In this document: piece after piece, positions 8,198-43,964 of the stretch
Position numbering within the stretch: position 1 is the first letter of the stretch
How the letters are laid out: each line of letters starts with the position of its first letter
From: Candidatus Cloacimonadota bacterium
GTDB lineage: Bacteria > Cloacimonadota > Cloacimonadia > Cloacimonadales > Cloacimonadaceae
DNA: 53,521 bases
Assembly: GCA_020532545.1 (NCBI GenBank)
Contig: JAJBAW010000016.1
Location: 1 to 53,521, forward strand
Reading direction: 5' to 3'
Notes under the pieces: generated by a model
Seen by the model: only the letters and a program-made list of their open reading frames with translations
Database searches by the model: none
Told to the model about the DNA's origin: nothing
Made by a program: the position numbers and the translations under genes

Positions 8198-11100
8198 TAC
8201 TCGTCCTTAAAGAGGCTATAGCGCTGCAATTTCTTGATCAGTCCTTGTCGGGACAGTCCCAGTTCCCGCGCTGCCTGCGTTTGATTCCAATCGTACTTAT
8301 CCATTGTGGCACTTATCATTTCGCGCTCCAGCTCTTCCACGGCTTCTTTCAGATTCAGTTTGCTGCTTAGCAAGTCGATGGTGCGAGTCTGCTCTTGGTG
8401 GCCGTGTACTTCATCGGAGAAATCTTCCGGCACGATGAAGGTATTATCATCCACCAGAGTCACAGCGCGTTCAATCTCGTTTTCGAGCTGACGCACGTTA
8501 CCGGGAAACTCGTAGTTTTCCAGAGTCTTCATCGCTTCTGCGCTAAAGCCCAGCACGTTTTTGCCGATGCGTTTGTTGTATTTGTCCAGAAAATGGATGG
8601 CCAAAAGCGGCACATCTCCGGGACGGTTTTTGAGAGGGGGCACCAGGATACGAATCACATTGAGGCGGTAGTACAAGTCCAGACGGAAATCGCCTTTATG
8701 AACTTTCTCCAAAAGCGGAACGTTTGTGGCGCAAACCACGCGCACATTTACCTTTTCGGTCTTGGTAGCGCCCACCCGCTTGACTTCACCTTCTTGTAAG
8801 AAGCGCAGGAGCTTGGCCTGGGTGGATTGGCTGATGTCCGAGATTTCATCCAGGAAGAAGGTTCCGCCATCGGCGATCTCAAAGAGCCCTTTTTTATCAT
8901 AAGCCGCACCGGTGAAGCTGCCTTTGACGTGGCCAAAGAGTTCACTCTCCAGAAGAGATTCTGGCAGTGCACCGCAGTATTGGGCCACGAAGGCTTTGTT
9001 ATCGCGATTGCTGCCATAGTGCAAGGCTCTGGCCAGCAGCTCCTTACCAGTTCCGCTATCGCCTTCCAAAAGCACGGTGGTAGGGGTATCCTTCACCTTT
9101 TCGATGATCTCAAAGATCTTCATCATCTCCGGGCTTTTCCCGATGATATTGGCATAGAGATTGCCCTTGTGCAGTTGCTCACGAATCGTGGCATGGCTCT
9201 TTTCCAGATTGGCGCTGCGGATGTTTTCGATGATCACGATGATCTGGTTTGAAAGCGCATTCAGCAGGTTGATGATGCGCTCGCTGAAATAGTGGGAGCC
9301 GCTTTTGCAGAACAGCACCACCACCCCCATGTTGTTTTTGCGGATGGAAAGCGGCAGCAGCAGGATGTTGTTGTATTTGGACGCAAAGTGCGGTTGTTTA
9401 TAGTTTTTCAGCTCATTATCCTGATGCACTTCGGCACAGAGATTCATCATCATATCGTAGTCCGGTGATTCCGCAGAGAAGTTCTTGAAGAGCTTATACT
9501 CCCAGGTATCAGGGAGATTGGAGCTGCTATGCAGGCAGAGGATGCCGCCATCGGCCTCTGAAATTTCGATCAAACTGGTCAGAGACTGTTCGATGATCAG
9601 ATCCAGATCGGCGATGGTGTTCAGCTTTTGGGTGATTTCATAGAATTGATTGAGCAGATTCTCCTCGAACTTCACCTCTTGCATTTGCGAGGAGTATTCG
9701 CGTGAGATTCTCTGCATGAGGATGTCGTTTTGCTCCAGGAGCTTGATCGAACCGTATTTCTGGATCACCTTTTTGTTGTTTTTGAGAATCTGCAGGGCTT
9801 GCTCCCAATCCTCCAAATCCAGCAGCACACCGGCCAATTCATAATTCACCAAGGATAGCTCATAGTTATTACCGGAGGCTACAAAGCATTTTATCGCTTC
9901 CTCCAGATAGCTCTTGGCATTCTCCAGGTTTTTGCGCTCCAGCAGTGCCTTCAGATAGTAGGTCCAGCCGATCTCAAAGTCATTTTGCTGCTCGGTGGCC
10001 AGCTTCAGCGCTTCATTGATGTAATAGTCCGCGCTTTCGGCATTGTGGGTCATGATAAAGTAGTAAGCCTGATTTTGGCAACCTTCCACGATCTTATCCC
10101 GCGCGCCCAGAGCCTTGAAGAAGTCAAAGCTTTCCATCAGATAGCGGTAGGCTTCTTTGAATTTGTGCAGCTTCGTGAGCACAGAGCCCAGATTGCCATG
10201 CAGCTCTGCTTTGATGTAGTCATCGCTCACCGAAGGCAGTAGCTCCAAGCCCTTGAAATACAGATCATAAGCCAGGTTCAATTCCCCGCTTTTCTCATAG
10301 ACTTCGCCCAGATTATTGAAGCTGCGCAGTAGCCCTTCACCAAAGTTATTCTCCTGAGAGAGCTTGATCGCTTTTTCATAATACTCTATAGAGCCCTTCC
10401 AATCCCCCATTTTGAAGCTGAGCGCACCCAGATTGTTCAGTGAGGCGATGGTATTGCGGAAGAAGTTAAATTCGATGGCGGTTTCCAGGGATTTCTTCAG
10501 CGCATCTTCCGCGCGAGCATAATCCCCATGATCCATCATGGTCACACCGATGTTATTGTATATATTGGTAATATTATAGGGCTCCGAGAGCAGCCGCTGG
10601 ATCTTCAGCGCTTCTTCCAGATAGTACAGCGAGCGCGTAGCATCGCCTTTGTCGTCCATCAGACCACCCAGATTGTTGAAGCACACCGAGATGCCATTGA
10701 GGTTGTAATCCTGCTTTTCCAGTGCCAGGCTCTCCAGGAAGAAGTTCTCACTCTGATCCCATTCGCCCTGGAACATATACAAAACCCCGAGGTTGTTATA
10801 GATCGCTGCCAAACCGTTGTGATCATCCGCCAGTTTATACAAGGTTTCAGATTCCCGGAAAGCTTCCTCGGCTTGATCCCATTCGTTGATATAATAGTGG
10901 ATCTTTCCGCGGATCTTCTTGGCTTCGGCCTGGATGAGATAGCGCCGGTGCTGATCATCAATCCCGCTCAGGGATTGCATCACGGTATCCAGAGTCTCAA
11001 AGGCCTCGTTAAAGTTTTCACTTTCGGCCTGAATATCGGCTCTCAATAGCAAGATGCGCGCCTTCCAATAGCTGTCTATAGTAGCGGGAGAGTATTTCTT

Positions 11101-12474
11101 GATGATTTCAAGGGCAAAATTGCTGGAATTCACCGCAAACAGATTCTTGGAGAGATGGTAAACCGTTTCTTCGGCAGGCAGGTTATTTTCTGTGCAGATG
11201 TGCAGACATTCCCGATAGTAATCCACGGCCTTGTCTTTTTGCGCCAGATTGGCATAGCAGGCAGCCATCTTCTGCGTGTACAACAGCTTGTCCTCAGGTT
11301 TTGTGCTGATCGAGCTCAGATATTCATTGATCTTGAGATTGCTTTCGGCATCGCTCAGGATCTCAAAGAGATGAGCCATGGCAGCAAAGAGTTCGGCGCT
11401 ATATGTGCCTCCGTGAATATGCAGACGCAAACGGATCTGAGTCCCCAGCTCTTTCTTTTTCAAGAAGGCCAGGATCTTGCTCACTAGTGGCTTGGGCAGC
11501 CTCTGAGGGTCCTGATGTAGCCATTGACTGAAAGCGCGCTTTTTTTGCACCACAGAGCTCTCTTCCACAGTTGCCAGGAGTCCTTTCTCGATTAAAGCCT
11601 TCATGTCCATCTTGATGCCCTTGCGGCCCAAAGCTTCGGCGATCAGCTCCACATCCAATCCGTCCATGATGTACATGGCGGTGAGGAATTCACTCTGCGC
11701 TTTCGTGAGCCCATCCAGATTCTGAAAATAGATGCTTTCAGGGTCGTAAGTCTTTTCCAGATAAGGGCTGAGGTCAAAGCCAGTCTTGGGCTGGGCCTCC
11801 TCCATTTCCGCAAAGATGCGCTCCAATATCATCAGATTGCCACCCGAGATATTGTGCAGAATCTCGCCCTCTGAGATATAGCTCAGGCGCGTGCTGGGAA
11901 ATATGCTGCCAAGAAGATTCTGCAAATCTTCGGCGCCCAAAGCCGGCAAGTATTCTACTATAGAGAAAGGGAAGAGATGGCTCTGCGAGAGCACTACCAC
12001 CTGAATGGCAGCTTCCGCCGCATATTGCACCAGATATTGCAAAAAGTCCCGGGAATAAGCATCCAGGACATCGCTATCATCTATCACTAGCACCATGGGC
12101 ATCAGCAGCTTCTTTTGCAAGAGCAATTCGGTGAGATAATAGAAGAAATCGTACTTTTTGCCGGTATAAAACTTCTCGTAATGAGTCTCATAGATCTTCA
12201 TCTGCTCGTTTTCGTCCAGACCTGTGATAATCTCGATCAATTCCGGGAGATGATTGAAATAAAGCGGATGGGGAGTAAAATAAACTATCCGTTTGTAATG
12301 CTTCTCCAGGGCGGAAATGATCGGTTTTATCAGATAGGATTTCCCCGAGCCGGACTTGCCGGTGATTTCCAGCAAATGGCTGCACGTGTTATCCTTTAGC
12401 GGCTCCAAGACACGGTTCAAATCGAAGCGCTCGGTTACAAATTCATGCATTTTATGATAAAGCTTCTCAGGCAT
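8197..12474 (-). CDS. giant sigma-54-dependent activator: P-loop ATPase + TPR + GAF + AAA+ + Fis HTH
   Basis: A 1425-residue transcription activator of unusual build. Residues 1-330 hold a STAND/MalT-like ATPase (Walker A GKSGSGKS at 39-46; Walker B MVLVIDDSD at about 127-135). From about 370 to 930 there are many TPR-like repeats (NNLGVLYMFQGEWDQSENFF, NNLGALSFKMGDWKGSIEYY). A GAF-like sensor follows at about 960-1090. The sigma-54 AAA+ domain has Walker A GDSGTGKE near 1138, the sigma-contact loop in the form GSFTGA near 1185 (usual GAFTGA), and the Walker B region GTFFLDEISD. The last 40 residues are a Fis-type helix-turn-helix (NQTQAARELGLSRQGLIKKL). The ribosome site is CAGGAG. The fusion replaces the usual receiver domain with a sensor like that of MalT/LuxR-type regulators. 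Its target is not proven. Confidence 0.92.
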   Translation of the reverse strand: MPEKLYHKMHEFVTERFDLNRVLEPLKDNTCSHLLEITGKSGSGKSYLIKPIISALEKHYKRIVYFTPHPLYFNHLPELIEIITGLDENEQMKIYETHYEKFYTGKKYDFFYYLTELLLQKKLLMPMVLVIDDSDVLDAYSRDFLQYLVQYAAEAAIQVVVLSQSHLFPFSIVEYLPALGAEDLQNLLGSIFPSTRLSYISEGEILHNISGGNLMILERIFAEMEEAQPKTGFDLSPYLEKTYDPESIYFQNLDGLTKAQSEFLTAMYIMDGLDVELIAEALGRKGIKMDMKALIEKGLLATVEESSVVQKKRAFSQWLHQDPQRLPKPLVSKILAFLKKKELGTQIRLRLHIHGGTYSAELFAAMAHLFEILSDAESNLKINEYLSSISTKPEDKLLYTQKMAACYANLAQKDKAVDYYRECLHICTENNLPAEETVYHLSKNLFAVNSSNFALEIIKKYSPATIDSYWKARILLLRADIQAESENFNEAFETLDTVMQSLSGIDDQHRRYLIQAEAKKIRGKIHYYINEWDQAEEAFRESETLYKLADDHNGLAAIYNNLGVLYMFQGEWDQSENFFLESLALEKQDYNLNGISVCFNNLGGLMDDKGDATRSLYYLEEALKIQRLLSEPYNITNIYNNIGVTMMDHGDYARAEDALKKSLETAIEFNFFRNTIASLNNLGALSFKMGDWKGSIEYYEKAIKLSQENNFGEGLLRSFNNLGEVYEKSGELNLAYDLYFKGLELLPSVSDDYIKAELHGNLGSVLTKLHKFKEAYRYLMESFDFFKALGARDKIVEGCQNQAYYFIMTHNAESADYYINEALKLATEQQNDFEIGWTYYLKALLERKNLENAKSYLEEAIKCFVASGNNYELSLVNYELAGVLLDLEDWEQALQILKNNKKVIQKYGSIKLLEQNDILMQRISREYSSQMQEVKFEENLLNQFYEITQKLNTIADLDLIIEQSLTSLIEISEADGGILCLHSSSNLPDTWEYKLFKNFSAESPDYDMMMNLCAEVHQDNELKNYKQPHFASKYNNILLLPLSIRKNNMGVVVLFCKSGSHYFSERIINLLNALSNQIIVIIENIRSANLEKSHATIREQLHKGNLYANIIGKSPEMMKIFEIIEKVKDTPTTVLLEGDSGTGKELLARALHYGSNRDNKAFVAQYCGALPESLLESELFGHVKGSFTGAAYDKKGLFEIADGGTFFLDEISDISQSTQAKLLRFLQEGEVKRVGATKTEKVNVRVVCATNVPLLEKVHKGDFRLDLYYRLNVIRILVPPLKNRPGDVPLLAIHFLDKYNKRIGKNVLGFSAEAMKTLENYEFPGNVRQLENEIERAVTLVDDNTFIVPEDFSDEVHGHQEQTRTIDLLSSKLNLKEAVEELEREMISATMDKYDWNQTQAARELGLSRQGLIKKLQRYSLFKDE

Positions 12475-12783: not shown

Positions 12784-15700
12784 CTATAAATCTTCTTTAG
12801 ATTCTTCTTTAGTAGATTCATAAAAAGCTTTCAGCGCTATAGCGTGCTTCTGAATGTACTTGATAGAAAGCTCTTCTCCATTTAAAATAAGATCTAACTC
12901 GAAGCTCTCACTTGTTGGATCAATGCTTTCTATTTGTTCGATTACTCCAGGGCTTTTCAATCTACCATAGACCATTTGAGCAAAGTGGTGGGCACACAAG
13001 CAGATTGCATTACCAGTCATATCAGCACTATCGGAAACCTTTCTGGGAACAAGGAAATGTGAGATAAAGAATGGTCTCCCATTCTTCTGACAAAAAGTTG
13101 ACCCGCATATCTGGCACTTTCCAGAATACCATCTATTAAGAGATTCCCTTACAATCGGATCGGGGCCATCAAGTATTCTTCTCCTCACTTCTCTGTATCG
13201 TTCAGCTTGATCGCGGCTGTTCTTGTTTTTATCACTGGCTCTATCGTATTCTTTTTCATAGCGGCCTTGGGGATCGTTGGAGCTGCCATTATCATCATTC
13301 CACTCATCATCATCGTTGATGGGTTTATCCTTGGTATTGAAGCCGGAGAATAACTCTTCTGCGAAGCTTTGCTCTGCTTCTTTCTCTTCATTATCCTCTG
13401 TTGCACTATCCTCTTCAAAGTCAGATCTTTCGTCTGAATTAGTTTTGTTGTTTGCCCCCTTCCCAGAGCTCTGACCGGATGAACCTCCAGAGTAAGGTCC
13501 GCGAGTCTTGTGACGTTGCTGAGCACCATCCTGCGAAGATGAATCAGTTCCTCCGCCTGCTCTGTCATCATCAGCTTGAGCAGCATTATCGTCATCATCT
13601 TCTTCTTCTGGAGCAGAAGATGAAGCTTCCTCGCTAAGTAGCTGCAGCAGGTCGTCACCCAATTTCCAGTTCTTCTCTTTAAGAGTATGGGCTAAATCGC
13701 TTTCACCATTACCAAGACAACCTTTTATCCAGGACTGTAATTCTTCATCAAACCCAGTGATCGATAAAATTCTGGCAAGCTCATAAGCAATCTCACTGAT
13801 GTTTGCAGATTCCTTATAGATGAGCCTTTTATGAAGCAAGTCACAGTAGCAGTTACTGGATTGTTGTACGCTTTCCCCATCTAAGTGATACTCAAGTTTG
13901 AGCGTATTTACAGAGTATTCTAGTAGGTTAAATGCTTTTTTAAGCAGATCATCGCTTTTCAGAGAGTTGTATAAATCCAGTCTTTTTTCTTTTATCCATA
14001 TTCCTATTAGAAGCTTGGATGATCTTGTTAGATATCTATTGGGATTAATCAATTGTGGCTCATCTAAGCTAATCAGGCCAGACAGTACTGATCCCTTTAG
14101 AGAGCGAATCCCAAATGTCTGATACATGTCTTCCCAATTGCCATAACTAGTGGTTTTGGGATACCAAGCATATTCAATTCTTTGATCCCCGAATATTTCC
14201 ATTAGCCCACCATCATCAGGTATCAACACCAACCCTCGATCAACGAAATGCTTGTTTGTTGACCACAATTTTGCTTGGGAAAGGAAATCCTGCCACCACC
14301 CCTCATTATTATCTGGCTCATTGGCAAAACGCATTTTCAGTTTGTTGTAAACAATAACCAGCTTTGCTTCGATCCTATCTGCCTCAATCGCTTCATGCAT
14401 CTGTGTATCAAGCCAGAGTTTACAAAACTCTCTATCACCGATATCGGTGGCAACACCTAATGTACCAACAAAGAATTCACGGAGCTTGGGGTAAGTCTTC
14501 TCCAGATAACAAAACTCATTGGGAAATAGATCACTGCGATCGTTCCAGATGCATACATTTAGCGATACCCACTTTTTCGAGTCTCCACTGGGAATTAGTA
14601 CACAATCCATACTAAATAGCTTTGCCTTGATGTCCTCCTTAGTGTCTGAATTGAGGATTCTGGGATTTAGAGTTGAGTAGATACGTTCTGCCATCTCAAC
14701 GCTGCCAGAGCAACTAGAGGAATAACTTTTAAGAGTTGAGATCAGCTGATCATTCGACAGCCTATCTATGATTTTAAAGTACTCTGTAACATTATCATTG
14801 AACGTGATTGTGTCCTCAAGATATGGTACAGTGTCACCAAGCACATCCATGATATCGGGAACATTTTTAAAGACCCGGGAAGGTTCATAGAAACCTTTTG
14901 TGGTTGGAACCCATGGACGCTTGTCTAAGAAATCCGTCATTTCGGAACTTAGTTTTTGGGAACGTGGGCGACGATTATAACTAGTGACTTTAGATTTTAG
15001 TTTATCCTCTAATTCATAAGTTCCCTTAATGCCTATCCCATTAAGCCATTTTACCAATGAAAGCGATACCTTGGGAGTTATCTCTGCAGCCAACCCTGAT
15101 GGTCGTTTTACTCTCCTAAGTGTCAATTCGGACAACCTACTATTGGCAGAGTATTCTGTCCCCCATTGCAAAGTCTCTTTTTCTTCAACAGAATAATCAT
15201 TAGAATCGCGCCAATGATACAAATCTATCAGATTTGGGTAAATTTCTTCCGTTGGAAGTGATGGATACCTACTCGCATTTGCTAATGTAACTAATGTAGG
15301 AATCTTTCCATTTTCCTTTAAATAAGAATCTGATAGTATATGGAGATGCAATCTGTCCTCAACACTGGAAAATAAGTTCTGCCACCCGCTTTCAGGATCT
15401 AACCCCATCGGTGTGATCAACTCATCAGACCTGCGGTTTATCGAAGATAGTGGGACTTTATTCCCATTACTCAAAAGTATCGGAATATCATCAATTACCA
15501 TCTCCTTCCTCATATGCAAGAGTATGTATTCTGTGGCTGCTATAAAATCTTCATCACTAAGTGATTGATAGATTGATTTAAACCACTTAAAGACTTCCTC
15601 TGCATAATTGGCCAGGTCAAAATGTTTTACTCGTAATGTATTTGCCAACCAGCTCATTAGGTTTGGATATTCTTTTACCAAGTTATAGAAACTATCATTA

Positions 15701-17343
15701 AGAAAGCGGATGGGAACTTTTATACAAGCTGGTGCACCCTTCAACGCTTGGATATCCTGCTCAGTAGCCTCGAAATATATGGGTTGCTCGTTAACACAGG
15801 AGTATCGAACCTTCTTGCTTTCCTTTATTGGGATTATGGGATAATGTGTTAGTCCCAAAACTACAGTTTGATTTTCATATTGATTTGTGTGTTTAGAAAG
15901 ATATTCATAAACCCTGATCAGTCCCTCAAAACCTATGCTCAAGACCCAATCTGCATCGGTTAAGCACTGAGAGACATGCGTCTGACCAATAGGTTCAATT
16001 CCTATAGCCTCGCCAACCTTACTGGGCATTGCATTCTGTAGCTCTTTTTTGATAAGTCTATTTACCAGTACTGGAGGTAACTTAAGATCGGATATAACTC
16101 TTCGGAACTCGACAGAAGATAAAGTATGTGAAGGAACTACGAAATTCCCACCAGGCTCAGTAGGAATGATTTCCAGCTTTGCCAAACCCTCATGTATTTC
16201 ACTAACTATCGGCTCAAAGAAAGACACCTTGCTGGCTAAGGGGATATGTTTGAAAATCTCATATCTGTAATCCTTCGATCTTATCAATTTAGTGAAAGCT
16301 TCGATAAAGAGGTCTGGTATTTGATAGCGCAGCCAAATGTTCCAGGGGCTGGTTTCGTCCAGTGCTTCACGTGAACTGGTCAACAAAAAATCCGCATTAA
16401 TAATAAAGGGTAATCCAGTGTTCTCTAAAACCGGTAAATAGGCATATATGGAGCCTTTGATAGATTGATTATCTGTGGGAAAGGCTATGGTAATATCTCT
16501 ATCAGATACCCCATCTCTATCTTCGGCGAATAGATTATCTGGCCTCTGGTATTTCTTAGTGTATAGTAGATATTTTCGCTGTTCGTTTGCTTCCACAGCA
16601 CGATCACGCGTATGAACATTGATGTGGACGAACGTATCATTCTCTACAATCTTCTCAATACAAAGCTCGTACTCATATTCAACTGAGAACCTGAGATACC
16701 GGATCTTATCCAAGAATAGAATGGTCTCCGGAGAAAACTCCTTCATCATATTGAAAACCTCAGAAAAGTTTGATTTACCCTTGGCCAGTGGGAGTATGAT
16801 GGTAGTTTGGTTGATGTCCACACCGTCAGGAACTAATTCAACCCATTCCGGGACGATAAATCCCAATCCGAGGTCATTGATTTTTTCCGGGAAGCGAACC
16901 TGATAGTTATTTGAAAATATATATGGAGAGTTCGTGATATTGAATACTGACTTGAAACCTATCCCTTTCTCTCCAATATACCCGTCTCGCTTTTCTTTCA
17001 AAGAAGCACCAATTCTACACATTGCTTTCATGTTTGCTTCAGAAAAGCCGACTTCGTTGTTTACAATGATTAAAGCACCGTCAGAGTCCGGAGAATCAGT
17101 GGGGTCGTCTTTCACCAAGGTAAAGCTTAGAGATGGGTTTTTATGAATGTAGCTATTATCTTCTGCATTCTGGATTAATTCCACAATGAAGTGACTAACT
17201 TTACCATAGACATCTTTGGATAGCTTTTCAATGGATTCTTGGAGGTCTTCGAGTAGTGGGTTTTCTTCACCTCTTCGATCTGAATCATCTAACCAATATT
17301 TTTCCTTGCGGATCTTCATAATATGCTTATATTGCTCGCTCAC
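12784..17343 (-). CDS. sacsin-like HATPase with C-terminal HNH-like zinc finger (defence island)
   Basis: A 1519-residue protein starting at GTG 17343, directly after the SNF2 stop codon, with a GGAGGG ribosome site inside the end of the SNF2 gene. Residues 25-200 are a GHKL ATPase of the Hsp90/sacsin type: N-box ELIQNAEDNS (N59), IIVNNEVGF (92-100), and the lid GEKGIGFKS (124-132). A long region without recognised motifs follows. About residues 1240-1330 form an acidic, Ser/Gly-rich linker. The C-terminus carries an HNH/treble-clef finger: CQIC (about 1411-1414), ISHFLVP, GNAICLCAHHFAQM (about 1443-1456). Sacsin-type ATPases with nuclease tails recur in prokaryotic defence loci; the role here, as ATP-driven sensor with a nuclease end, is inference. 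It is the last gene of the island operon and ends in TAG. Confidence 0.8.
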   Translation of the reverse strand: MSEQYKHIMKIRKEKYWLDDSDRRGEENPLLEDLQESIEKLSKDVYGKVSHFIVELIQNAEDNSYIHKNPSLSFTLVKDDPTDSPDSDGALIIVNNEVGFSEANMKAMCRIGASLKEKRDGYIGEKGIGFKSVFNITNSPYIFSNNYQVRFPEKINDLGLGFIVPEWVELVPDGVDINQTTIILPLAKGKSNFSEVFNMMKEFSPETILFLDKIRYLRFSVEYEYELCIEKIVENDTFVHINVHTRDRAVEANEQRKYLLYTKKYQRPDNLFAEDRDGVSDRDITIAFPTDNQSIKGSIYAYLPVLENTGLPFIINADFLLTSSREALDETSPWNIWLRYQIPDLFIEAFTKLIRSKDYRYEIFKHIPLASKVSFFEPIVSEIHEGLAKLEIIPTEPGGNFVVPSHTLSSVEFRRVISDLKLPPVLVNRLIKKELQNAMPSKVGEAIGIEPIGQTHVSQCLTDADWVLSIGFEGLIRVYEYLSKHTNQYENQTVVLGLTHYPIIPIKESKKVRYSCVNEQPIYFEATEQDIQALKGAPACIKVPIRFLNDSFYNLVKEYPNLMSWLANTLRVKHFDLANYAEEVFKWFKSIYQSLSDEDFIAATEYILLHMRKEMVIDDIPILLSNGNKVPLSSINRRSDELITPMGLDPESGWQNLFSSVEDRLHLHILSDSYLKENGKIPTLVTLANASRYPSLPTEEIYPNLIDLYHWRDSNDYSVEEKETLQWGTEYSANSRLSELTLRRVKRPSGLAAEITPKVSLSLVKWLNGIGIKGTYELEDKLKSKVTSYNRRPRSQKLSSEMTDFLDKRPWVPTTKGFYEPSRVFKNVPDIMDVLGDTVPYLEDTITFNDNVTEYFKIIDRLSNDQLISTLKSYSSSCSGSVEMAERIYSTLNPRILNSDTKEDIKAKLFSMDCVLIPSGDSKKWVSLNVCIWNDRSDLFPNEFCYLEKTYPKLREFFVGTLGVATDIGDREFCKLWLDTQMHEAIEADRIEAKLVIVYNKLKMRFANEPDNNEGWWQDFLSQAKLWSTNKHFVDRGLVLIPDDGGLMEIFGDQRIEYAWYPKTTSYGNWEDMYQTFGIRSLKGSVLSGLISLDEPQLINPNRYLTRSSKLLIGIWIKEKRLDLYNSLKSDDLLKKAFNLLEYSVNTLKLEYHLDGESVQQSSNCYCDLLHKRLIYKESANISEIAYELARILSITGFDEELQSWIKGCLGNGESDLAHTLKEKNWKLGDDLLQLLSEEASSSAPEEEDDDDNAAQADDDRAGGGTDSSSQDGAQQRHKTRGPYSGGSSGQSSGKGANNKTNSDERSDFEEDSATEDNEEKEAEQSFAEELFSGFNTKDKPINDDDEWNDDNGSSNDPQGRYEKEYDRASDKNKNSRDQAERYREVRRRILDGPDPIVRESLNRWYSGKCQICGSTFCQKNGRPFFISHFLVPRKVSDSADMTGNAICLCAHHFAQMVYGRLKSPGVIEQIESIDPTSESFELDLILNGEELSIKYIQKHAIALKAFYESTKEESKEDL

Positions 17344-20300
17344 CTACAATCCCTCCTTGATATTTCTGATTATCCCATACACAACCGGACTGACTACGAT
17401 ATCAGCTCTTTCAACAGCAATGTCCAGTGCCTGTGTATTCCTTGTAAATGCAGCTTCCAGGGATGCCAATTGCGAACGATACATTCTCAATATCTTTTCG
17501 TCGGTCACTTGTTCCATTTTATCTTGTATGGATGCAGTAACTGCCTTATGGCTTGTTTTAAGGCTTTGTTTCTTATACTCAGCTATTTCTTTAGTTCTTT
17601 CGATATGTTTCTGCTTTTCTTCCTTCCACAATTCATAATGACGAGATTCTAGGTGATCCCAATGATTCGACTGCGGATTTGAAGCTGGTCGGTATCCAGT
17701 AGCGTTCTCAAGTATGGGTATCAGCCTTGAGCCTATACTCGGATCTGAGCACACAGGCTTGAGTGTCAGATCGTTTTTGATACCTCTTGTTTCCCATTTA
17801 TAAATCACAAAGTCATGTATTCCTTCTGGAATCTCTGGATCCTCTACTTGCAATTCGGTATAGGCAAAATCAAAGCGATCTGTATGGTGAGCAGCTTGTT
17901 TTACCAAGGGATGAAGTGCGTTTATCAACACCACTTTGGTGTCTTTCACAGCATATTCTGTATTGAATGTAATGCTAAGATGCGGATTTGCATCTTTTAG
18001 CCATTTCTCCCAGGCTCTGCCGGGAGTAGAAGCGCTAAGTTTCATTGCCTGGTAATCTCTCAGCAGGATGCTTCTGGCTTCTTGCGATAAACGCAAGGTC
18101 TTGGGCTCTTTATCCCCTAGTATATATGACTGCTGAGAGCCAAACCTTTCATTCAGGTAGGATTTAATCAGGTGTTCCAACATTTTTGGTGATAACCAAT
18201 AGCTACTGGCAGACTTGATATCTTGTTCTGTTCGATTAGTAGGAACCTCTATGCCAAATAGCTCATATTGCTGCTGTTCTAATTTCTCCTCTTCAACCAT
18301 CTTTCGTATTTTGTTATCAGCCAGTTGTTGGAGTTTGATCTTTCTTTCCTCATCGGTTAGCTTTAGGTTTTCAGCAATATTCTTGATTGAAAGAGCTAAT
18401 TCACCCAATATCTCATCAGAATCACCTATCGATTTCTCAAAGATGCCTATCCGCAGTAAGCAACGGTCATAGATATCCTCATCGACCGTCCCCTCGGTAA
18501 TCATATTATAGATCAACACTTTTTCACTTTTCTGTCCCTTACGATCAATACGCCCGATTCTTTGCTCGATCTTCATAGGATTCCAGGGTAGATCATAATT
18601 GACCATTGTATCACAGAATTGATAGTCCAGCCCTTCGCAACCCACTTCGGAAAACAGCATCACATCTATGCTATCTTTATCCTCTTGGGGTAATTCAAAT
18701 CTTCTACGCAAATCAAGACGATCTTCATCATTGACCCCGCCATAGATAAATCCAACTCTAATTCCGATCTTGAGAAGGTGTTTATGAAGATACTTTAGTG
18801 TGTGGATGAAACTGCTGAAAATCATAACCTTATTGTTGGGTAGGGATTGTTTGTCCTTCAAAACTTGTAACAAGGCATCAAGTTTAGGATCGCTCCCCGA
18901 AACTTGGGAAGCTAGCTCTAACAAGGTGTTCACTTCTTCTTTTATGCCTTGAATGATATCAATATCTGGGACAAAATCATATAGATCATCCCATAGTGAT
19001 TCATCCAACCGACGATTAAGGATATCTTTTAGAAAAGGCAACAATCCAAAAATGCAGCTTGCAGCTTGTCTGCGGATAGTGGACATCAGGAAGTTGATGG
19101 ATGTATTCCCACTAGTTTGTGTTAAAATTCTACGTTGAATATCCAACATTTCATCATGAATCAATGCTTGTTCCGGGGTGAAGCTTACCATTACAGTCTC
19201 AGGTTTGCGAATAACGAAGATGCCAATATCTCTTCTTCTGGTACGGTTAATCACTCCTGATAATGTGTGAAGGTCCTCAACTTCAGATATCGATTTGACT
19301 CTCTGCTCGTTTGTAATCAGGTCTCTGCTCAAATCTTGCAGAACTGCTGTGTAAGAGGGATTGTTTTGAGCAATAACGCGTCCCCATTCTGTCGTCAAGA
19401 CCTCGATTAAGGCCTCTTTTGCATTTTCCTGCCATCCTGGTTGGTTTTGGCGCATGATTTTTACCGTACGCGTTATATATTGGTTTGGTTCCACCATCGT
19501 TCTGTAGCTATTACGATCAATGATCAAATCAGGACGCAATGTCTTCAATAAGACAAACAGATCCTCGCTCTTAGTCTGCACAGGAGTAGCCGTTAAGAAA
19601 ACCACCGCATCAGCATTATTACATAGGTAGCTTACAATCTGATGAGCATATGTATTCGTATTTCTGATATGATGTGCCTCATCGACGATTATCAGATCAA
19701 AATGAGGTGGTGGGTCCAGATCTAATAGTCCGATACTCTTTCTGCCTCGCTTTGTCTCACCATGAAGCAAAGTTTCGTCAAACAACGAATATGGAATTAT
19801 TGATCTTCTGTAATCTTGAGGCCACTCTCTCTCGAGGTCACATTCATTGATGCACAGCCTTAGCTGTTTGCCGTCAAGTTGCCGGAATGACTCATCAAAT
19901 CTTTTCATTTCATTCAGCCACTTCTTCTCTGCCACCAATGGTCTGGGACAGATTATCAGTACTGATTGAAGCTCACTTCTTGCCTGGAGTTCCTTTAGGA
20001 TTAATCCTGCTTCTATGGTTTTTCCAACTCCAACGCTATCTGCTATCAAGAGTCTGGAGCGATCTGACCTGATGAATTTCAATACAGGTCGAAACTGGTA
20101 AGGTATATAGTCAATCCGTGCAGAATTCAAAGAATAGAGAGTGCTGAGATTGGGTTGCCTGATCTGAAGTGCAGTTATGGTCGCATTAAACTCATCCAGA
20201 TTCAAGAGCTTGAGTTCTTTCTGCGGAACAACTTCCAATTGAGATTCATAGAAGCTTTGAGCACCACCTTCCCCGAAGACATCGATCCTACACTCAGGCT

Positions 20301-20859
20301 TACTACTATGAATGCCGACCACTGCATATTGCTTGTCAGGAGATGACTTCAACCTTACAATCTGACCTTGCTCAAATCCTTGTGGTGTAGATTCATTTGT
20401 GGTTTGTTTCTGATCCTCATGTTTACTCCCTTTGATGATCTCTTGCTTTTTCTGTTGTATCTCTTCAATCAGTTTGCTGTCAGCATCGATCATCTTGAGG
20501 AACCTCTGTGTGGTATCCAAGTCCCGATATAAGTCATCATCGTTTATAGGTTTACTGCTTTTATGAGCCCAACGGTTACGTATTGACTGCATCTCTTTGA
20601 GATAATGCCTTTGTTCAGGTTCATAGTTCAGGTGATCTGATACTCTAAACCAGTTTTGATCAAAAATCCTCAGCAGAGCTGCTAGATCAAGCACACTGAG
20701 TGACCTATCTTCAGATTTAAGTAGATTGTCTTTCTGTCTTGGATTCAATACAGCAAGAACCATGTCTTGCCACCAGTTTTCACTGATATAGGGTAGTTGT
20801 TTCGATAGAAATTGACCTATCTCATGTGTCGTTGCATCTTGTAAATCGTACATTTTCAT
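17344..20859 (-). CDS. SNF2/RapA-like helicase with N-terminal Swt1-type HEPN domain
   Basis: A 1171-residue protein. Residues 1-125 match the Swt1-family HEPN domain and keep the RX4H motif of HEPN RNases (RNRWAH, 94-99). A small barrel-like piece (VRLKSSPDKQYAVVG, about 195-235) resembles the SH3-like part of RapA. The SNF2 motor is complete: I DSVGVGKTIEAGL (about 268-280), II DEAH (about 393), III LTATPVQT, IV MIFSSF, V GCEGLDYQFCD, VI QRIGRIDRKGQ (about 768-778). The C-terminus is coiled-coil rich. The ribosome site GAGAGG touches ATG 20859 and is ideally spaced for ATG 20853, so the real start may be two codons later. It lies four bases after the UvrD-like gene. I infer a DNA translocase linked to an RNase-type effector. 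Confidence 0.85.
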   Translation of the reverse strand: MKMYDLQDATTHEIGQFLSKQLPYISENWWQDMVLAVLNPRQKDNLLKSEDRSLSVLDLAALLRIFDQNWFRVSDHLNYEPEQRHYLKEMQSIRNRWAHKSSKPINDDDLYRDLDTTQRFLKMIDADSKLIEEIQQKKQEIIKGSKHEDQKQTTNESTPQGFEQGQIVRLKSSPDKQYAVVGIHSSKPECRIDVFGEGGAQSFYESQLEVVPQKELKLLNLDEFNATITALQIRQPNLSTLYSLNSARIDYIPYQFRPVLKFIRSDRSRLLIADSVGVGKTIEAGLILKELQARSELQSVLIICPRPLVAEKKWLNEMKRFDESFRQLDGKQLRLCINECDLEREWPQDYRRSIIPYSLFDETLLHGETKRGRKSIGLLDLDPPPHFDLIIVDEAHHIRNTNTYAHQIVSYLCNNADAVVFLTATPVQTKSEDLFVLLKTLRPDLIIDRNSYRTMVEPNQYITRTVKIMRQNQPGWQENAKEALIEVLTTEWGRVIAQNNPSYTAVLQDLSRDLITNEQRVKSISEVEDLHTLSGVINRTRRRDIGIFVIRKPETVMVSFTPEQALIHDEMLDIQRRILTQTSGNTSINFLMSTIRRQAASCIFGLLPFLKDILNRRLDESLWDDLYDFVPDIDIIQGIKEEVNTLLELASQVSGSDPKLDALLQVLKDKQSLPNNKVMIFSSFIHTLKYLHKHLLKIGIRVGFIYGGVNDEDRLDLRRRFELPQEDKDSIDVMLFSEVGCEGLDYQFCDTMVNYDLPWNPMKIEQRIGRIDRKGQKSEKVLIYNMITEGTVDEDIYDRCLLRIGIFEKSIGDSDEILGELALSIKNIAENLKLTDEERKIKLQQLADNKIRKMVEEEKLEQQQYELFGIEVPTNRTEQDIKSASSYWLSPKMLEHLIKSYLNERFGSQQSYILGDKEPKTLRLSQEARSILLRDYQAMKLSASTPGRAWEKWLKDANPHLSITFNTEYAVKDTKVVLINALHPLVKQAAHHTDRFDFAYTELQVEDPEIPEGIHDFVIYKWETRGIKNDLTLKPVCSDPSIGSRLIPILENATGYRPASNPQSNHWDHLESRHYELWKEEKQKHIERTKEIAEYKKQSLKTSHKAVTASIQDKMEQVTDEKILRMYRSQLASLEAAFTRNTQALDIAVERADIVVSPVVYGIIRNIKEGL

Positions 20860-20863
20860 CCTC

Positions 20864-22918
20864 TCAAATGGTCACTAATGACCAACCTAATTCTTCAAGC
20901 TTTTTATGAGTTGTGCTTGGAATTCTATCTTTATGAAATGCTGCACACAAGAAATGAGTGGGTCTGCTCATAGCAACGTATGCCACCTTCAATGCGCATT
21001 TTTTATTCTTGCCGTCTTTCGATGAGAAAGTCTTATCCCCAGTCAAGTATTCATGGAGTTGATTACCGTTGAAATCATAGCTAAAGCACTCCAAGAATAG
21101 CGTCGCAGTGTGAGTTTGACCTTTTACTGAATGTACTGTTCCAACTTGTATGTCAATGCTATTTGAAGAGAAAATATTACTCACTGAGGAGGTGTTTTCC
21201 ATTTGTTCTATGGGGTTAGTGATGAATTGACTTACTTGGGCTTCATCTATTTCAAAATACGGAAGCCAGGTTTCTTTAAGATATTGAATTATCTGTTCAA
21301 AAACGCAATGAGGATATACATCATCTTTGTGAAAGCAAGATGTTTTGTCACAAGCATGTTTAGCAATCTGCTTAACCCACAATGCCATCTTAGTTTTAAA
21401 ATCAGAATCGAATTCTTCATCGTTCTTAAGAAACTTAACTAGTGATCGCTGAGTGTACCTCTTTCCATTTGTTGGATTGGTTTTATCCCCTTCGCTCAGC
21501 ACTCTAAGGAATGAACTTAACAATGAATTAGAAATCTTTGAGGGATTCAATTGTGATTGTGAACCGATGGGTTTGACCAGATAATTCTTAAGCGAGTCGT
21601 ATATTGGGTTACCTGACCTTACTGGCCTATGATATTCTGGAAAGTACGACTTCACGCTTGTCTTTTCCTCTCCACCTGTAGTAGTTTCTTCTTTATCATG
21701 GGTCCACCCAACAGCATAGTAAACTGGGATTTTACCTGAAGTTTCTAACTCACTCTTCCATAAGCCTTCTCGTTCTTTGATCAATTCACAGAACTTACTT
21801 AGTACAATTGATTGTGAATCATCGTCATACAGTATAAAGACTGGCGAGAAGAGATAATTTGTTCCTCGATCAACACCCTCTAGACTATCCTCTGGTTTGA
21901 TGCACACATTGTGTATCGCCTTCGCTATTTGTGACGAGATTCTCTTTGATGTTGAAATTGTAAATCTCTGATCTGACAGTGCCCAAGCCTCTACATCTGA
22001 CACTTTGTTGTCATAAATAGCCTGATTGGGGTCACCTATCCTCTGCTTAACTACACTGTCAGTGAAAACTTTGTTCATTAGGTCATTTTGTCTTTGATCG
22101 GTGTCTTGCATTTCATCGATAAAAAGGTAGTTAAATCTATGGCTTATAACTTCCCTGATTTGTGGATATCGAGAAATGTAGTACAGCCCAAGATTGAAAG
22201 CATCAATGAAGCGTATTACGCCACTACCCACAGTACCAAGAACAAGCTTCTCTATGAATTTGTAAGATACAGTTTTAATATCGGTTAACTCCCTATTCTT
22301 CTTAACGTGAATGAAACTCAACTTAACTTCATTGTCCCAAGTCCATATTGGATGAAATCCTGACATGATTAAATACTTTGGAAGACGTTGATCGTTGTAA
22401 GAAAGGGTTTTTTCATTTGGTGTTAGCAAGTTGTAAATGTAGCCATTGTTCCAGAACTTATTGTCATCTGTTATAGCTTGTTTAACTGATTTCCAGAAAC
22501 GTGAATCATATACATCATCATCGATGATAATCTCTCTACTTCCAAACAAGCTTACAAATGCCGGAATAGCCAAAAATCTATCGACAAAGCTCTGTATCGT
22601 GCCAAAGAAGTTTGGATAAGTAAATAGCACAGAACTTGCCTTTCCCATTCTCCGCTTGATCTCATCTATGGCAACATTTGTGTGAGTCAATACACAAATA
22701 CCCTTATTGCCATCAAACGGCATAAATTTGGACATGATGAAGAGCTTTGCCAGTAAAGCTGTCGTCTTACCACTACCAGGACAAGCTACCACATCAGTTG
22801 ACTCTAAGCACTTTATAAAGTTAATCGACTCCTGATCAAAATGATATCCATTTGGAAGGAAAAGCTTCTCAGATTCGTCTATATGCGAAAGGATGCTAAG
22901 TTCGCTTATTTCTACCAT
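20864..22918 (-). CDS. UvrD/PcrA-like superfamily 1 helicase, GajB-like
   Basis: A 684-residue SF1A helicase. Visible motifs: I ACPGSGKTT (45-53), Ia ICVLTHTNVAIDE, II FIDEMQD (about 268), III RIGDPNQAIYDN, V VGTVHSVKGQTHT (about 592), VI LKVAYVAMSRPTHFLCAA. All look intact. It follows the OLD-family nuclease gene by nine bases, the arrangement that defines class 2 OLD pairs and the Gabija system (GajA then GajB). It is longer than typical GajB proteins (about 500 residues), with extra sequence around residues 370-580. In Gabija the helicase is thought to sense DNA ends or help activate the nuclease; the same role here is inference. Confidence 0.87.
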   Translation of the reverse strand: MVEISELSILSHIDESEKLFLPNGYHFDQESINFIKCLESTDVVACPGSGKTTALLAKLFIMSKFMPFDGNKGICVLTHTNVAIDEIKRRMGKASSVLFTYPNFFGTIQSFVDRFLAIPAFVSLFGSREIIIDDDVYDSRFWKSVKQAITDDNKFWNNGYIYNLLTPNEKTLSYNDQRLPKYLIMSGFHPIWTWDNEVKLSFIHVKKNRELTDIKTVSYKFIEKLVLGTVGSGVIRFIDAFNLGLYYISRYPQIREVISHRFNYLFIDEMQDTDQRQNDLMNKVFTDSVVKQRIGDPNQAIYDNKVSDVEAWALSDQRFTISTSKRISSQIAKAIHNVCIKPEDSLEGVDRGTNYLFSPVFILYDDDSQSIVLSKFCELIKEREGLWKSELETSGKIPVYYAVGWTHDKEETTTGGEEKTSVKSYFPEYHRPVRSGNPIYDSLKNYLVKPIGSQSQLNPSKISNSLLSSFLRVLSEGDKTNPTNGKRYTQRSLVKFLKNDEEFDSDFKTKMALWVKQIAKHACDKTSCFHKDDVYPHCVFEQIIQYLKETWLPYFEIDEAQVSQFITNPIEQMENTSSVSNIFSSNSIDIQVGTVHSVKGQTHTATLFLECFSYDFNGNQLHEYLTGDKTFSSKDGKNKKCALKVAYVAMSRPTHFLCAAFHKDRIPSTTHKKLEELGWSLVTI

Positions 22919-22927
22919 AAGTTCACC

Positions 22928-24976
22928 CTACACATCCTTACCGCAAGCAAACTTAATTGCATTTACCAGATAATTCAACTGATCATCATTATCAATGCTA
23001 TCCCTCAAGACATTCTTTTTTTCTAATAGGGTTTTTGCCAAAAACTGTGCTGTAAGAGCTTTTGAGAGATTCCCAAGGAATGGCTTCATCATCATATAGG
23101 CATCTGAACTATCATTTGGTAGTACCAAACTCTTTTCCGACAATTCTCTTGCATTATTCATTGCCGACAGCAAGTCATCTTTTAGCACGCTGTTTGCGAG
23201 ATTGTACTCAAGCGTCCACTCATTTGGAAATATCCTTATGTTATTGTTGTTTGGATGATATTGATTCTGTGTTTTTCTTTCTTTCATTAGACCGATATAA
23301 TCACCAACATGCTCCGACTTGAGTTCAGTTTTCTCAGCGATATTGTCAGTAGGCAAGTCATATAACCCCAACAATGCCTTGAATCTCGTCTTGTCTGTTT
23401 CTAGTAGTACTTCAGCATTTTCTATCACATGACAGTACACCTTGGGTGGGTTTACAATAAGGTGTTCTCTACTTGGAACATCCCCATCACTAATTACGGC
23501 AACCTTTACCGGCATTTCTTGTCTATCAGTTCTCTCAAATATTTTCACATATCGTTTCCATGCTGTACTGCCCACATTTACTATTGAGACTCCATGTTTA
23601 CCCAGGGGCAAACCAATAACCTCTGCCAAAGCCGGAATAAGAAGATTTTCAGCATCTCCTTCGACTATGATAACCCCCTTAGCAAAGAAGAGATTCGCTT
23701 TGGTCGCATCAAGGAATCTTTCTAAGAAGTACAAACTATCTGGATCAATCTCAGTATATGGCTTGTCGTTCTCATTATTACCCATAGGAAAGACATTGCT
23801 GTCTTTGCATATTATCAAGCTAGCGAGCGGTACAGAGGAACCCATAACAATACTATGAGTAGTTAGAATGATTTGTCCAATATCACCGATGTGTTCAGTG
23901 AAATACTTTAGAGTGTTAATCTGGTAATGGGGATGTAAGTGAGCTTCCAACTCCTCAATAATCGCTAGCTTTAGTCCATTGTAATTCTCTCGTTTCAATA
24001 ACATCAGCTCTGCTGCTATATAAAGTAGATTCATTAATCCCAAGCTTGGTTGATTATTATCGATGTTTAGAGTTAGTCGCTGAATGATCGCCCATAACTC
24101 TACGCCCGACAAGGTTACGAATGGTTCAACTCGCCTACCTGCTGAAGTAAAGGAGGTTAGATTATCCTTTATCGTATCAATGATATCTTTTCCACCTATA
24201 CTCACTTCAGGTCTAAGGAGAGATTTGATCCGCTCTAGTTCATCAACTATTCTCTTAGAATCTGGAACATTCTTTGATGAGTATTCTGAGGACAGCAGTT
24301 CAATCGACACGATAGCTTCTTTGTTTATCTGCTGAATGAATTCATTGTTGCCTGTAAAATAGTCTCTAATGCCAGCATCTGACAAGGTAACCAGTTTGCT
24401 AAGCGGATGGTCTTTCTCTTCCTGTTGTGTTTTACACTTAAACTCACTTCGGCTCTTAAGTAATTGGGCAAATCTTGATCTTCGCCCGGCAGACATTTCT
24501 ATTTCTGCGTCTCTTAATGGTTTTAAGTAAGTTGTTCTGAGAAGATCTCTTGCTCCAGCATCTAACTGGGTTCCGACATTATCCATTCCTGCCCGAACCT
24601 CTTGGAGTATCCGATTATCTTTTCTTTCTGCATTTAACCACACCCTCAAGACATACTCATTTTTGTCATCAAAGCCAATCCACTCAAGGAAGTTACCTGC
24701 TTCGGCATTCGTAAAACCCTTGAACTCACACTCTATCTTAAGAGAATCAGTTCGATTATTCAAGTGGTAGTGAAAATCTATATCCTCAAGTCTAATATAA
24801 TCATAGCTCTGAGTTTGGAGCACAAATCTGATAGCATCAACTATAGTAGTTTTACCTGATTCATTCTCTCCTATAAGCACATTGAGCCCTTTGTTGAATT
24901 TGACAACAATACCTGGACTATCTTCAGATTCCCCATATTTACGAAAATTGGTTATTGATAATTTTTGCAGATACAT
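22928..24976 (-). CDS. OLD-family ATPase-TOPRIM nuclease, GajA-like
   Basis: A 682-residue protein with an ABC/SMC-type ATPase and a TOPRIM nuclease. Walker A is GENESGKT (36-43); a signature-like QPSLGLMNLLYIA comes before Walker B LAIIEELEAHLHPH and the H-loop LTTHS. The TOPRIM core has the acidic site VEGDAE (about 437-442) and the DxD pair in ISDGD (about 494), so metal binding should be intact. The C-terminal ~150 residues fit the OLD family. With a UvrD-like helicase directly downstream this is a class 2 OLD (Gabija-type) nuclease, a nicking nuclease held off by nucleotides in the known case. A GGAGG ribosome site precedes the ATG. Confidence 0.88.
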   Translation of the reverse strand: MYLQKLSITNFRKYGESEDSPGIVVKFNKGLNVLIGENESGKTTIVDAIRFVLQTQSYDYIRLEDIDFHYHLNNRTDSLKIECEFKGFTNAEAGNFLEWIGFDDKNEYVLRVWLNAERKDNRILQEVRAGMDNVGTQLDAGARDLLRTTYLKPLRDAEIEMSAGRRSRFAQLLKSRSEFKCKTQQEEKDHPLSKLVTLSDAGIRDYFTGNNEFIQQINKEAIVSIELLSSEYSSKNVPDSKRIVDELERIKSLLRPEVSIGGKDIIDTIKDNLTSFTSAGRRVEPFVTLSGVELWAIIQRLTLNIDNNQPSLGLMNLLYIAAELMLLKRENYNGLKLAIIEELEAHLHPHYQINTLKYFTEHIGDIGQIILTTHSIVMGSSVPLASLIICKDSNVFPMGNNENDKPYTEIDPDSLYFLERFLDATKANLFFAKGVIIVEGDAENLLIPALAEVIGLPLGKHGVSIVNVGSTAWKRYVKIFERTDRQEMPVKVAVISDGDVPSREHLIVNPPKVYCHVIENAEVLLETDKTRFKALLGLYDLPTDNIAEKTELKSEHVGDYIGLMKERKTQNQYHPNNNNIRIFPNEWTLEYNLANSVLKDDLLSAMNNARELSEKSLVLPNDSSDAYMMMKPFLGNLSKALTAQFLAKTLLEKKNVLRDSIDNDDQLNYLVNAIKFACGKDV

Positions 24977-24998: not shown

Positions 24999-25982
24999 TT
25001 ACACATCCAAACATGCCCCATTTTCTTTCAGCCATTGCACTTGCTTCTGATAATCCGGCAGTATCTTATCCACCTCATTCCAGAAGTCTTTACTGTGTCG
25101 TTTATGTTTGAAATGCGCCAGTTCATGCACGATCAGATAATTGATCACACTCACAGGTGCCATCATGATCTTCCAGTTGAAGTTTACCTTGGGACGTTGC
25201 ACTGAACATGATGCCCATCTGTTCTTCAGGTCGATGATAGCGACAGCTTCCACTTTCAATCCCATCATCTCTGCAAAGCGATGCACACGTGGTTCTATGA
25301 ACTTCTTGCCCCGCAGTCTGTAGAACTCCTTGAACATAGCCTTCAGCTTATCTTCAGAGCCTTCTGGAGCATAATAATGCCTGCCCCTGAATTGTATCTC
25401 AGTGACCTCATCGCTATATTGCAGATAGTAGTTTCTACCCAGATACAGGAAGGACTGCCCATTCACCAGTTCCCGTTTGATGGCGCTCTCCTACAGCAGT
25501 GCCCGTTTTGCCTGATATTTGTATATCTTATACTCATTTTGTTTGAGGAGATTTTGTACTTCAAGGTCAGTAGTTCCATCTGGCACAATTACCGTAATAG
25601 AGCTATCCCGCTCGATATAGATCGAAGCGGTCTTCCGCTTACTATGCTTTATAACTACATTGAAGTTTTTATCCGCTTGCTTGATGGCTTCTGCTTGATG
25701 TCGGTATAGCTGCATTGCCTTGCCGAGGTCTGTCTTAGCATTCTTAATCCGAAAGATCTTCGCGCAATCGGGGTGTAAGGTACCCTGCAAGATCAATTGC
25801 TCAATCTGTTCACCAAACACGACATATGGGCTTATCTGCAGAAGGGGATCTGGCCACAGAAGTCCACCATTCAGCTCATCAGACACGATTCTTTTGATTG
25901 ATTCATCTTTGATGGTGATGAAGCCTTTCACAAAAGAGCTGTAGTCGCTGATTAGCTTGTCTTTCAGCTCAAATACATTCAT
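24999..25982 (-). pseudogene. broken chimera: giant-helicase N-terminus fused to YgjP-like metallopeptidase
   Basis: The frame opened at ATG 25982 runs 163 codons to TAG (25493-25491), then continues in the same frame to TAA at 25001-24999. Residues 1 to about 105 (MNVFELKDKLISDY, GLLWPDPLLQI, LHPDCAKIFR, LYRHQAEAI) read like the N-terminus of the very large DEAD/DEAH helicases of the DrmA/DruE/DUF1998 kind. They stop just before where Walker A should be. From about residue 106 (VVIKHSKRKTASIYIERD) the sequence switches to the N-terminus of YgjP/DUF45 metallopeptidases. After the amber codon the YgjP domain goes on (VNGQSFLYLGRNY) to its zinc site HELAHFKHKRHSKDFW. I infer a deletion that joined two genes, followed by a nonsense mutation. 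A restart at GTG 25466 could give a 155-residue fragment. Confidence 0.75.
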
Positions 25983-29854: not shown

Positions 29855-29891
29855 CTTTCCTCCAGGAAATATCCGGGGTTTAGTTTTGAGT

Positions 29892-32024: not shown

Positions 32025-32052
32025 CTTTCCTCCAGGTAATATATCCATGGTT

Positions 32053-32160
32053 CTAGGCTTTGATATTGCCGGGTCGACGAGGAATGTGCTCAAAACCGCG
32101 TTCCCCATATGGGCTCCGGCAGTTCGAAAAGAAATACATCATAAGTAAAAACTCACTCAT
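32053..32160 (-). CDS. possible 35-residue leader ORF upstream of the secreted-protein pair
   Basis: Between the promoter at 32194-32222 and the gene at 32024, an ATG (32160) with an AAGGAG ribosome site seven bases upstream opens a 35-codon frame ending in TAG (32055-32053). It begins MSEFLLMMYFFSNC. It could be a regulatory upstream ORF or a small protein; no family is recognised. Confidence 0.35.
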   Translation of the reverse strand: MSEFLLMMYFFSNCRSPYGERGFEHIPRRPGNIKA

Positions 32161-43715: not shown

Positions 43716-43844
43716 GGTCTCTCCTTGCTTATTGATACTTTTTTGGCAGCTTGTCACAGCGAGCATTTGAGTCAAGAAATATCTGCTTTGAGCCCATTTA
43801 TATAGTGTCACCTCAAGAAATATGCCGGGTTTGGATGATTTAAC

Positions 43845-43873: not shown

Positions 43874-43964
43874 AACTCAGATTCAGAAATGCAATCTTAA
43901 TACTGATATGTACGAGGTAGAGGCTTAGTGCCGATTCCACAAAATCACAAGCGAGGTTAAAGCC

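Follow-up and report, generated by a model that had tools for sequence, protein, structure and literature searches.

The stretch of DNA analyzed here (the window) comprises the 53,521 nucleotides (nt) of contig JAJBAW010000016.1 from a Candidatus Cloacimonadota bacterium and contains on its minus strand four tightly spaced genes, termed A, B, C, and D in the order of their transcription. A and B encode a Gabija-like pair, C a HEPN-SNF2 protein, and D a sacsin/Hsp90-type ATPase. These genes very probably represent two stacked modules, the Gabija-like pair and the C-D pair, rather than one system. The C-D pair is probably an immune system in its own right, with a predicted function in defense.

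All four open reading frames (ORFs) reported by the first-pass annotation, which had been made from the letters of the window, were confirmed as listed, with gaps of 9, 4, and 0 nt between them. A (22928 to 24976, minus strand) encodes a GajA-like class 2 OLD protein of 682 amino acids (aa) with an AAA_15 ATPase and an OLD-like TOPRIM domain, as assigned by Pfam, PADLOC, and sequence matches in the PDB. B (20864 to 22918, minus strand) encodes a GajB-like UvrD helicase of 684 aa (Pfam and PADLOC), and C (17344 to 20859, minus strand) encodes a HEPN-SNF2 protein of 1171 aa (Pfam, PADLOC, a match to RapA, and a structural model). D (12784 to 17343, minus strand), which starts with GTG, encodes a sacsin/Hsp90-type (GHKL) ATPase of 1519 aa that belongs to the TmtA superfamily of PADLOC and carries an McrA-type zinc tail. 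The domains originally stated for the four ORFs were also found by Pfam (AAA_15 plus OLD-like TOPRIM; UvrD; HEPN_Swt1 plus SNF2/Helicase_C; SACS). Gaps of 22 bases or smaller had been given for this operon, and this holds, but the 22-nt gap is the one that separates a YgjP-like ORF (24999 to 25466) from GajA.

Conservation of C and D as a two-gene unit

C and D form a unit of their own. A five-sequence alignment of C was scanned against genome contigs, and at least 539 loci passed a loose confirmation. The best 80 of these at least 539 loci, from named genomes and with flanks of up to 10 kb, were analyzed. They were chosen by C alone and are therefore not selected for D; some of the fetched loci represent the same contig twice. 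At least 300 nt of sequence was available downstream of C in 77 of the 80 loci, and a HATPase ORF on the same strand was located downstream of C in 75 of these 77 testable loci. The start of the HATPase gene was positioned within −50 to +80 nt of the end of C in 64 of the 75 cases, and the two genes overlapped by 4 nt in 29 of them. When 10 named C-bearing genomes were searched with the TmtA model PDLC03972, each yielded one match, and this match was the partner of C.

GajA or GajB was found by tblastn at none of the 80 C loci, 53 of which contained at least 4.2 kb upstream of C. The interpretation of the four genes as one four-protein system, as put forward by the first-pass annotation, was rejected on the basis of this result and of a genome with Gabija but without C (G020, see below); a linkage of GajAB with C was observed only within one family, in two of its genera. 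The annotation had itself named repeated co-transfer of the OLD-UvrD pair with C-D in unrelated genomes as the support to look for, and with no such case among the 80 C loci, its own proposed test goes against a single system.

C is slow evolving and D is fast evolving, with a mean column identity of 55% for C (48 rows) versus 24% for the D-type proteins (51 rows). Matches to a HATPase of the D′ type occurred in 8 of 124 Cloacimonadota genomes, 6 of which also contained C. The gene after C at locus L029 (3749 to 8271) is a mosaic with a D′ first half and a D second half, and it contains frameshifts. This broken mosaic points to D′ and D being exchangeable in the position after C. A C-type gene was also present on three plasmids (L109, L110, and L111). 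These plasmid C genes do not encode a HEPN domain, are preceded by genes of about 176 to 184 aa that overlap the start of C, and are followed by genes for hypothetical proteins of about 1035 aa; the D protein of the window had no match on plasmids at an E value of ≤1e−20. The 106 genes neighboring the C-D loci comprised few repeated families, and 6 of them matched the RecD-like PADLOC model PDC-S68; an enrichment of defense islands is not claimed. RecD-like helicase genes recur beside C-D, for example, at L066 (16800 to 20672).

NCBIfam covers D by a sacsin-domain model only and C by the DrmD model below its cutoff. A description of the HEPN-SNF2/sacsin-HATPase pair did not turn up in the literature searched, with subscription journals and most preprints being outside the scope of this search, nor did a name, in agreement with the earlier remark that this pair is not known as a named system.

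The Gabija-like module and the remains of a composite island

The classification of the first two genes as Gabija-like was corroborated by PADLOC matches to GajA (E = 9.7e−191) and GajB (E = 1.5e−174). GajA contains a Walker A motif at residues 36 to 43 and the TOPRIM motifs VEGDAE (438 to 443) and SDGDV (496 to 500), and GajB contains a Walker A motif at residues 46 to 52 and the motif IDEMQD (267 to 272). The best PDB sequence matches of GajA from the window were the Xcc class 2 OLD nucleases 6njv and 6nk8. These searches returned class 2 OLD, PtuA, and SMC/Rad50 chains, none of the PDB matches at E values of ≤1e−3 was a chain labeled GajA, and GajB from the window had no PDB sequence match at E values of ≤1e−5. 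As in Gabija, A and B are adjacent and combine an OLD-type ATPase-TOPRIM protein with a UvrD helicase; the locus in the window differs by the addition of C and D, which are not part of Gabija as known.

Close relatives of GajA were present in 4 of the 124 Cloacimonadota genomes, and a search of a further phylum (375 genomes) yielded one match. Two of the four, the window and G023, are linked to C. G023, which belongs to the same family but another genus, displays the order HsdM-HsdS-GmrSD-HsdR-YgjP-GajA-GajB-C; its contig ends inside C, so that D is beyond view. Window and G023 are collinear over C, GajB, and GajA as far as the start of YgjP, with a DNA identity of 77 to 79%. The other two are G020, a one-contig genome with GajAB behind an HsdR/HsdM-like pair and without C at an E value of ≤1e−60, and G040, with an HsdR/HsdM-like pair upstream, GajB at the edge of its contig, and an assembly without C at the same threshold. 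C-D′ without Gabija was found in G027, in the order HsdM-HsdS-GmrSD-HsdR-YgjP-C-D′, and in G021 and G009. C (8 of 124 genomes) and GajA (4 of 124) occurred together in 2 genomes versus 0.26 expected (hypergeometric P = 0.02), a value that rests on one shared arrangement in two genomes that are not independent. Gabija pairs directly behind HsdR/HsdM-like genes were observed in two Cloacimonadota genomes (L127 and L128).

The restriction-modification (RM) genes of G023 are missing in the window. Upstream of GajA is the remnant of a gene for a YgjP-like metallopeptidase (24999 to 25982, minus strand), which is interrupted by an in-frame stop codon at 25491 to 25493. Homology to the YgjP protein of G023 starts at about position 25667; before that, a foreign N terminus of about 105 residues, helicase-like and with a weak match to DruE, is fused in frame. 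As judged from this arrangement, the remnant is a deletion scar of a lost RM operon. Because the RM genes are gone and YgjP is both stopped and fused to a foreign N terminus, the operon in the window is regarded as the residue of a larger composite island. The four-gene stretch is poor in guanine and cytosine (GC), with a GC content of 0.40 versus 0.49 and 0.50 in its two flanks, which suggests that it has been acquired.

The HEPN-SNF2 protein C

C starts with an N-terminal Swt1-type HEPN domain (residues 14 to 125, positions 20485 to 20820, minus strand; Pfam), followed by a small beta domain at about residues 162 to 210, a RapA/DrmD-like SNF2 motor, and finally a C-terminal alpha/beta region with a long helical hairpin. 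The Rx4H motif of the HEPN domain is RNRWAH (residues 94 to 99, positions 20563 to 20580, minus strand), and the protein also contains the motifs VGVGKT and DEAHH (393 to 397). Rx4H was intact in 60 of the 61 C proteins bearing the N-terminal extension among the 80 loci. RapA was the best solved relative of C by sequence (E = 4.6e−49), and a model of C with a predicted local distance difference test (pLDDT) score of 79.8 matched the fold of RapA (6bog, E = 2.0e−31). By these matches, C is a RapA/DrmD-like translocase that is predicted to move on DNA.

Residues 222 to 1033 of C match the SNF2 helicase DrmD of the DISARM system (PADLOC, E = 2.7e−105). However, C possesses an additional HEPN domain, and DISARM partner genes are absent from the operon; DrmA, DrmB, DrmC, and the methylase were not found when the genes between 3676 and 34432 were scanned with Pfam. 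With an NCBIfam DrmD score of 292.7 bits versus a cutoff of 610, C was rejected as a DrmD of DISARM. A fusion of a Swt1-like HEPN domain to SWI2/SNF2 had already been listed in 2013 (PMC3710099).

The GHKL ATPase D and its zinc tail

The sacsin-like ATP-binding domain of D (residues 46 to 149, positions 16897 to 17208, minus strand) was assigned by Pfam SACS and by NF047352, the latter above its cutoff. It contains the N-box ELIQNAEDN (55 to 63) and the motif GEKGIGFKS (124 to 132). The ATPase, TOPRIM, and HEPN motifs of the operon are intact, as had been claimed, with the caveat that the G1 box of D is NNExGF; the classical G1 box is DxGxG, and the relatives of D depart from it likewise. Residues were counted in 62 C-linked D proteins (61 of them distinct) with a minimum length of 900 aa; 54 came from named loci not cut at a contig end, and 8 were archaeal. 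The GHKL residues E55, N59, D62, G124, G127, G129, F130, and K131 were kept in all 62. The best PDB sequence match of D was SR1 of sacsin (E = 5.4e−21). A model of the D relative from L034 (pLDDT 85.8) matched full-length Hsp90 best (TRAP1, 5tvw, E = 1.1e−9) and also matched sacsin SR1.

The tail of D is an McrA-type HNH/treble-clef zinc domain (C1410, C1413, H1429, N1445, C1450, and H1453; positions 12985 to 13116, minus strand) with the motifs CQIC from residue 1410 and GNAICLCAHH at residues 1444 to 1453. A profile built from 24 D tails found EcoKMcrA (PDB 6ghc) with an E value of 6.8e−9 as the sole PDB sequence at E values of ≤0.01. The zinc ligands were kept in 62, 59, 59, and 58 of the 62 C-linked rows, and at least one histidine of the McrA pair was kept in 5. 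Two rows, both copies of one archaeal gene (L098/L183), had the first His, and three others (L065, L181, and L182) had the second; the D protein of the window keeps the first His of the pair (H1429), plus N1445 and H1453. The tail described in the first pass as HNH-like is thus a real sequence homologue of the McrA HNH domain, but its function as a nuclease is doubtful because the family has largely lost the McrA His pair, and a family-wide nuclease was rejected.

TmtA-like ATPases with other partners or without a partner

D matches the TmtA model PDLC03972 of the Tiamat system over residues 5 to 1367 (E = 5.6e−133). Tiamat is a single-gene system, whereas D stands after a HEPN-SNF2 gene. In one archaeal phylum, 32 of 392 genomes matched the TmtA model, and 20 places were examined from the 41 match rows listed. 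Twelve of these places contained solo genes, and the remaining eight had an SNF2 gene directly upstream that was either C-type or distant; four of the eight SNF2 genes scored 447 to 475 bits and the others 1046 to 1846 bits. Within a sample of Pseudomonadota, the model matched in 9 of 398 genomes. Four of these matches were with C (G124, L196, L197, and L199, three of which were already in the 80-locus set), two were beside a UvrD-type helicase gene (L201 in tandem and L198 divergent), one (L188) had no C within the preceding 756 nt, and two were distant solo genes. The UvrD-type helicase beside the D′-type HATPase at L201 (5185 to 11193) carries a PD-(D/E)XK nuclease and is an example of a nuclease-bearing helicase beside the same type of ATPase. 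From the neighbors of the D′-type HATPases at L201 and L198, the ATPase may swap motors.

A tree of 86 HATPase domains was calculated by a quick method and contains several long branches; most of its rows had been collected through C, so the tree gives no frequencies. The partner labels required 4 changes on this tree versus 15.2 in shuffles, and one starred clade of 60 rows comprised 58 C-linked and 2 UvrD-linked proteins. The D protein of the window grouped with C-linked long forms that had five solo genes among their neighbors.

Proposed mechanism

According to the proposed model, C would travel along double-stranded DNA by means of its RapA/DrmD-like SNF2 motor. D would be an Hsp90-like, ATP-driven clamp that docks on C or on the DNA occupied by C, with the McrA-derived zinc tail acting chiefly as a binding domain, less as a nuclease, and the fast-changing surface of D sensing the invader. 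HEPN RNases work as dimers, and Hsp90-like clamps dimerize with ATP; for this reason, D may be the clamp that switches on the HEPN RNase. Pairing of two C proteins by the clamp on foreign or stalled DNA would bring the HEPN domains together, RNA would be cut, and the infected cell would stop. Where the HEPN domain is missing, another effector must be postulated. The chances are about even that the HEPN RNase, with its predicted cleavage of RNA, is the main effector where it is present. The account as a whole, with two defense modules that are transcribed in the same direction and stand behind a ruined third one, and with the clamp-motor-HEPN mechanism, is slightly favored.

Several observations weigh against this account. 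The C protein at L030 (10001 to 13507) lost the arginine of Rx4H, although this locus retains the gene pair. Of the 80 C proteins, 19 (some of them cut by contig ends) lack the long N-terminal extension in which the HEPN domain resides, and because HATPase genes follow most of these 19 nevertheless, HEPN is not the universal effector. A HATPase gene after C was not found in 2 of the 77 testable loci, L043 and L081, where 681 and 369 nt, respectively, were available, and 11 of the 75 gaps or overlaps were outside of −50 to +80 nt (L046, L049, L051, L053, L059, L062, L069, L077, L080, L091, and L095), some of them with a small ORF between C and the HATPase gene. The Hsp90 matches of the L034 model had query-normalized template modeling (TM) scores of 0.20 to 0.24 in Foldseek, with 0.22 for 5tvw, and explain only part of the protein, and the models of D were made on relatives, the 1519-aa protein of the window being too long to fold whole. 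Finally, the order YgjP-GajA-GajB-C is common to the two genera of the window and G023, so that a functional link to Gabija may exist within this Cloacimonadota family.

Alternative explanations

The main competing explanation is that C-D guards a type I RM system, being silent while the linked RM system works and firing the HEPN RNase when a phage blocks restriction. PrrC and RloC are likewise HEPN-superfamily RNases tied to defense, and PrrC is linked to type I RM; they differ from C-D by another motor, an ABC ATPase, and by the lack of a GHKL partner. A type I RM enzyme linked to PrrC keeps it silent, and an anti-restriction factor of the phage activates it (PMC2610378). A guard function would agree with HsdR-YgjP before C-D in G027 (L023), L040, L065, and the IMG/VR contig L207, with a type I RM linkage at L026, and with the gene order in G023. 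Relatives of type I RM proteins were present at 7 of the 80 C loci only, in a narrow BLAST test with the L023 proteins as queries, and the RM genes of G023 are gone from the window. This explanation is rather unlikely.

An extended Gabija, in which GajAB and C-D form one four-protein machine, would explain the gaps of 0 to 9 nt in the window, the collinear GajA-GajB-C order in G023, and the overlap of C and GajA in the phylum; it is nevertheless very improbable in view of the C loci devoid of Gabija genes, the separate occurrence of Gabija in G020 and of C-D in G021, G027, and G009, and the observation of the arrangement in a single family. The same low probability applies to D as the effector, with an HNH tail that cuts DNA and a C protein that only delivers D. 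The tail is homologous to the McrA HNH domain, and the window protein retains H1429, N1445, and H1453, but the rarity of both McrA histidines among the 62 rows argues against this function. Hardly more probable is a role outside of defense, with C as a RapA-like factor of transcription or repair and D as its dedicated chaperone. RapA being the closest solved relative of C and the resemblance of D to Hsp90 would fit such a role, but the patchy occurrence (6 D-type loci, full or fragmentary, with C in the 124 genomes of the phylum), the low GC content of the stretch, the RM and Gabija genes among the neighbors, and the presence on three plasmids do not. An immune function of C-D as a module separate from Gabija is the preferred interpretation.

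Other genes in the window

A gene for a 1425-aa sigma-54 activator with AAA and TPR regions (8197 to 12474, minus strand) is located on the same strand 309 nt downstream of D. Its PADLOC match to RtcR spans only the AAA-HTH part, and a scan for sigma-54 sites did not detect a site. A gene for a caspase-like (C14) peptidase (42918 to 43982, minus strand) is located near a Rho-like gene (44693 to 45952, plus strand), and two large tandem proteins that carry Por secretion tails as well as FlgD-type Ig domains are encoded at 27692 to 32108 (minus strand).

Relation to known systems and biological meaning

RM operons in which GHKL ATPases accompany SNF2 helicases and HNH nucleases have been known since 2008 (PMC2292703). 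The MORC/paraMORC GHKL-SFII helicase RM-like systems from that source resemble C-D by a GHKL gene beside a SWI2/SNF2 helicase gene and by HNH in the repertoire. D differs by its apparent membership in another, sacsin-like GHKL family and by an HNH domain that is fused to D and mostly degenerate; in C, a HEPN domain is fused to the helicase. For VcSduA, a GHKL ATPase-nuclease, mutants in the ATPase and in the nuclease both lose defense (PMC12137116). The theme of GHKL-SNF2-HNH operons is therefore already published, while no description of the C-D pair itself was found.

With somewhat more for it than against it, C-D would be an unnamed two-gene immune system of bacteria, archaea, and plasmids, composed of a HEPN-SNF2 translocator that is gated by a fast-evolving clamp of the Hsp90/sacsin type, in which a zinc domain of McrA has been reused. 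This clamp would be a general signaling component that swaps motors and effectors (HEPN-SNF2, HEPN-less SNF2, or UvrD-PD-(D/E)XK as at L201), and some of the “solo Tiamat” genes would be a branch of a larger helicase-clamp class, which would occasionally be combined with type I RM and Gabija in composite islands.

For the annotation of defense islands, the four genes are a warning that tight operon spacing can join separate systems. If the interpretation is true, a gene pair in at least 80 sequenced genomes would be a so far unassigned immune system, and two old predictions, GHKL beside SNF2 from 2008 and the HEPN-SNF2 fusion from 2013, would join in one system. We know of no explanation for the role of sacsin/Tiamat-type ATPases in defense; these proteins would gain a partner that combines a motor with an effector amenable to testing.

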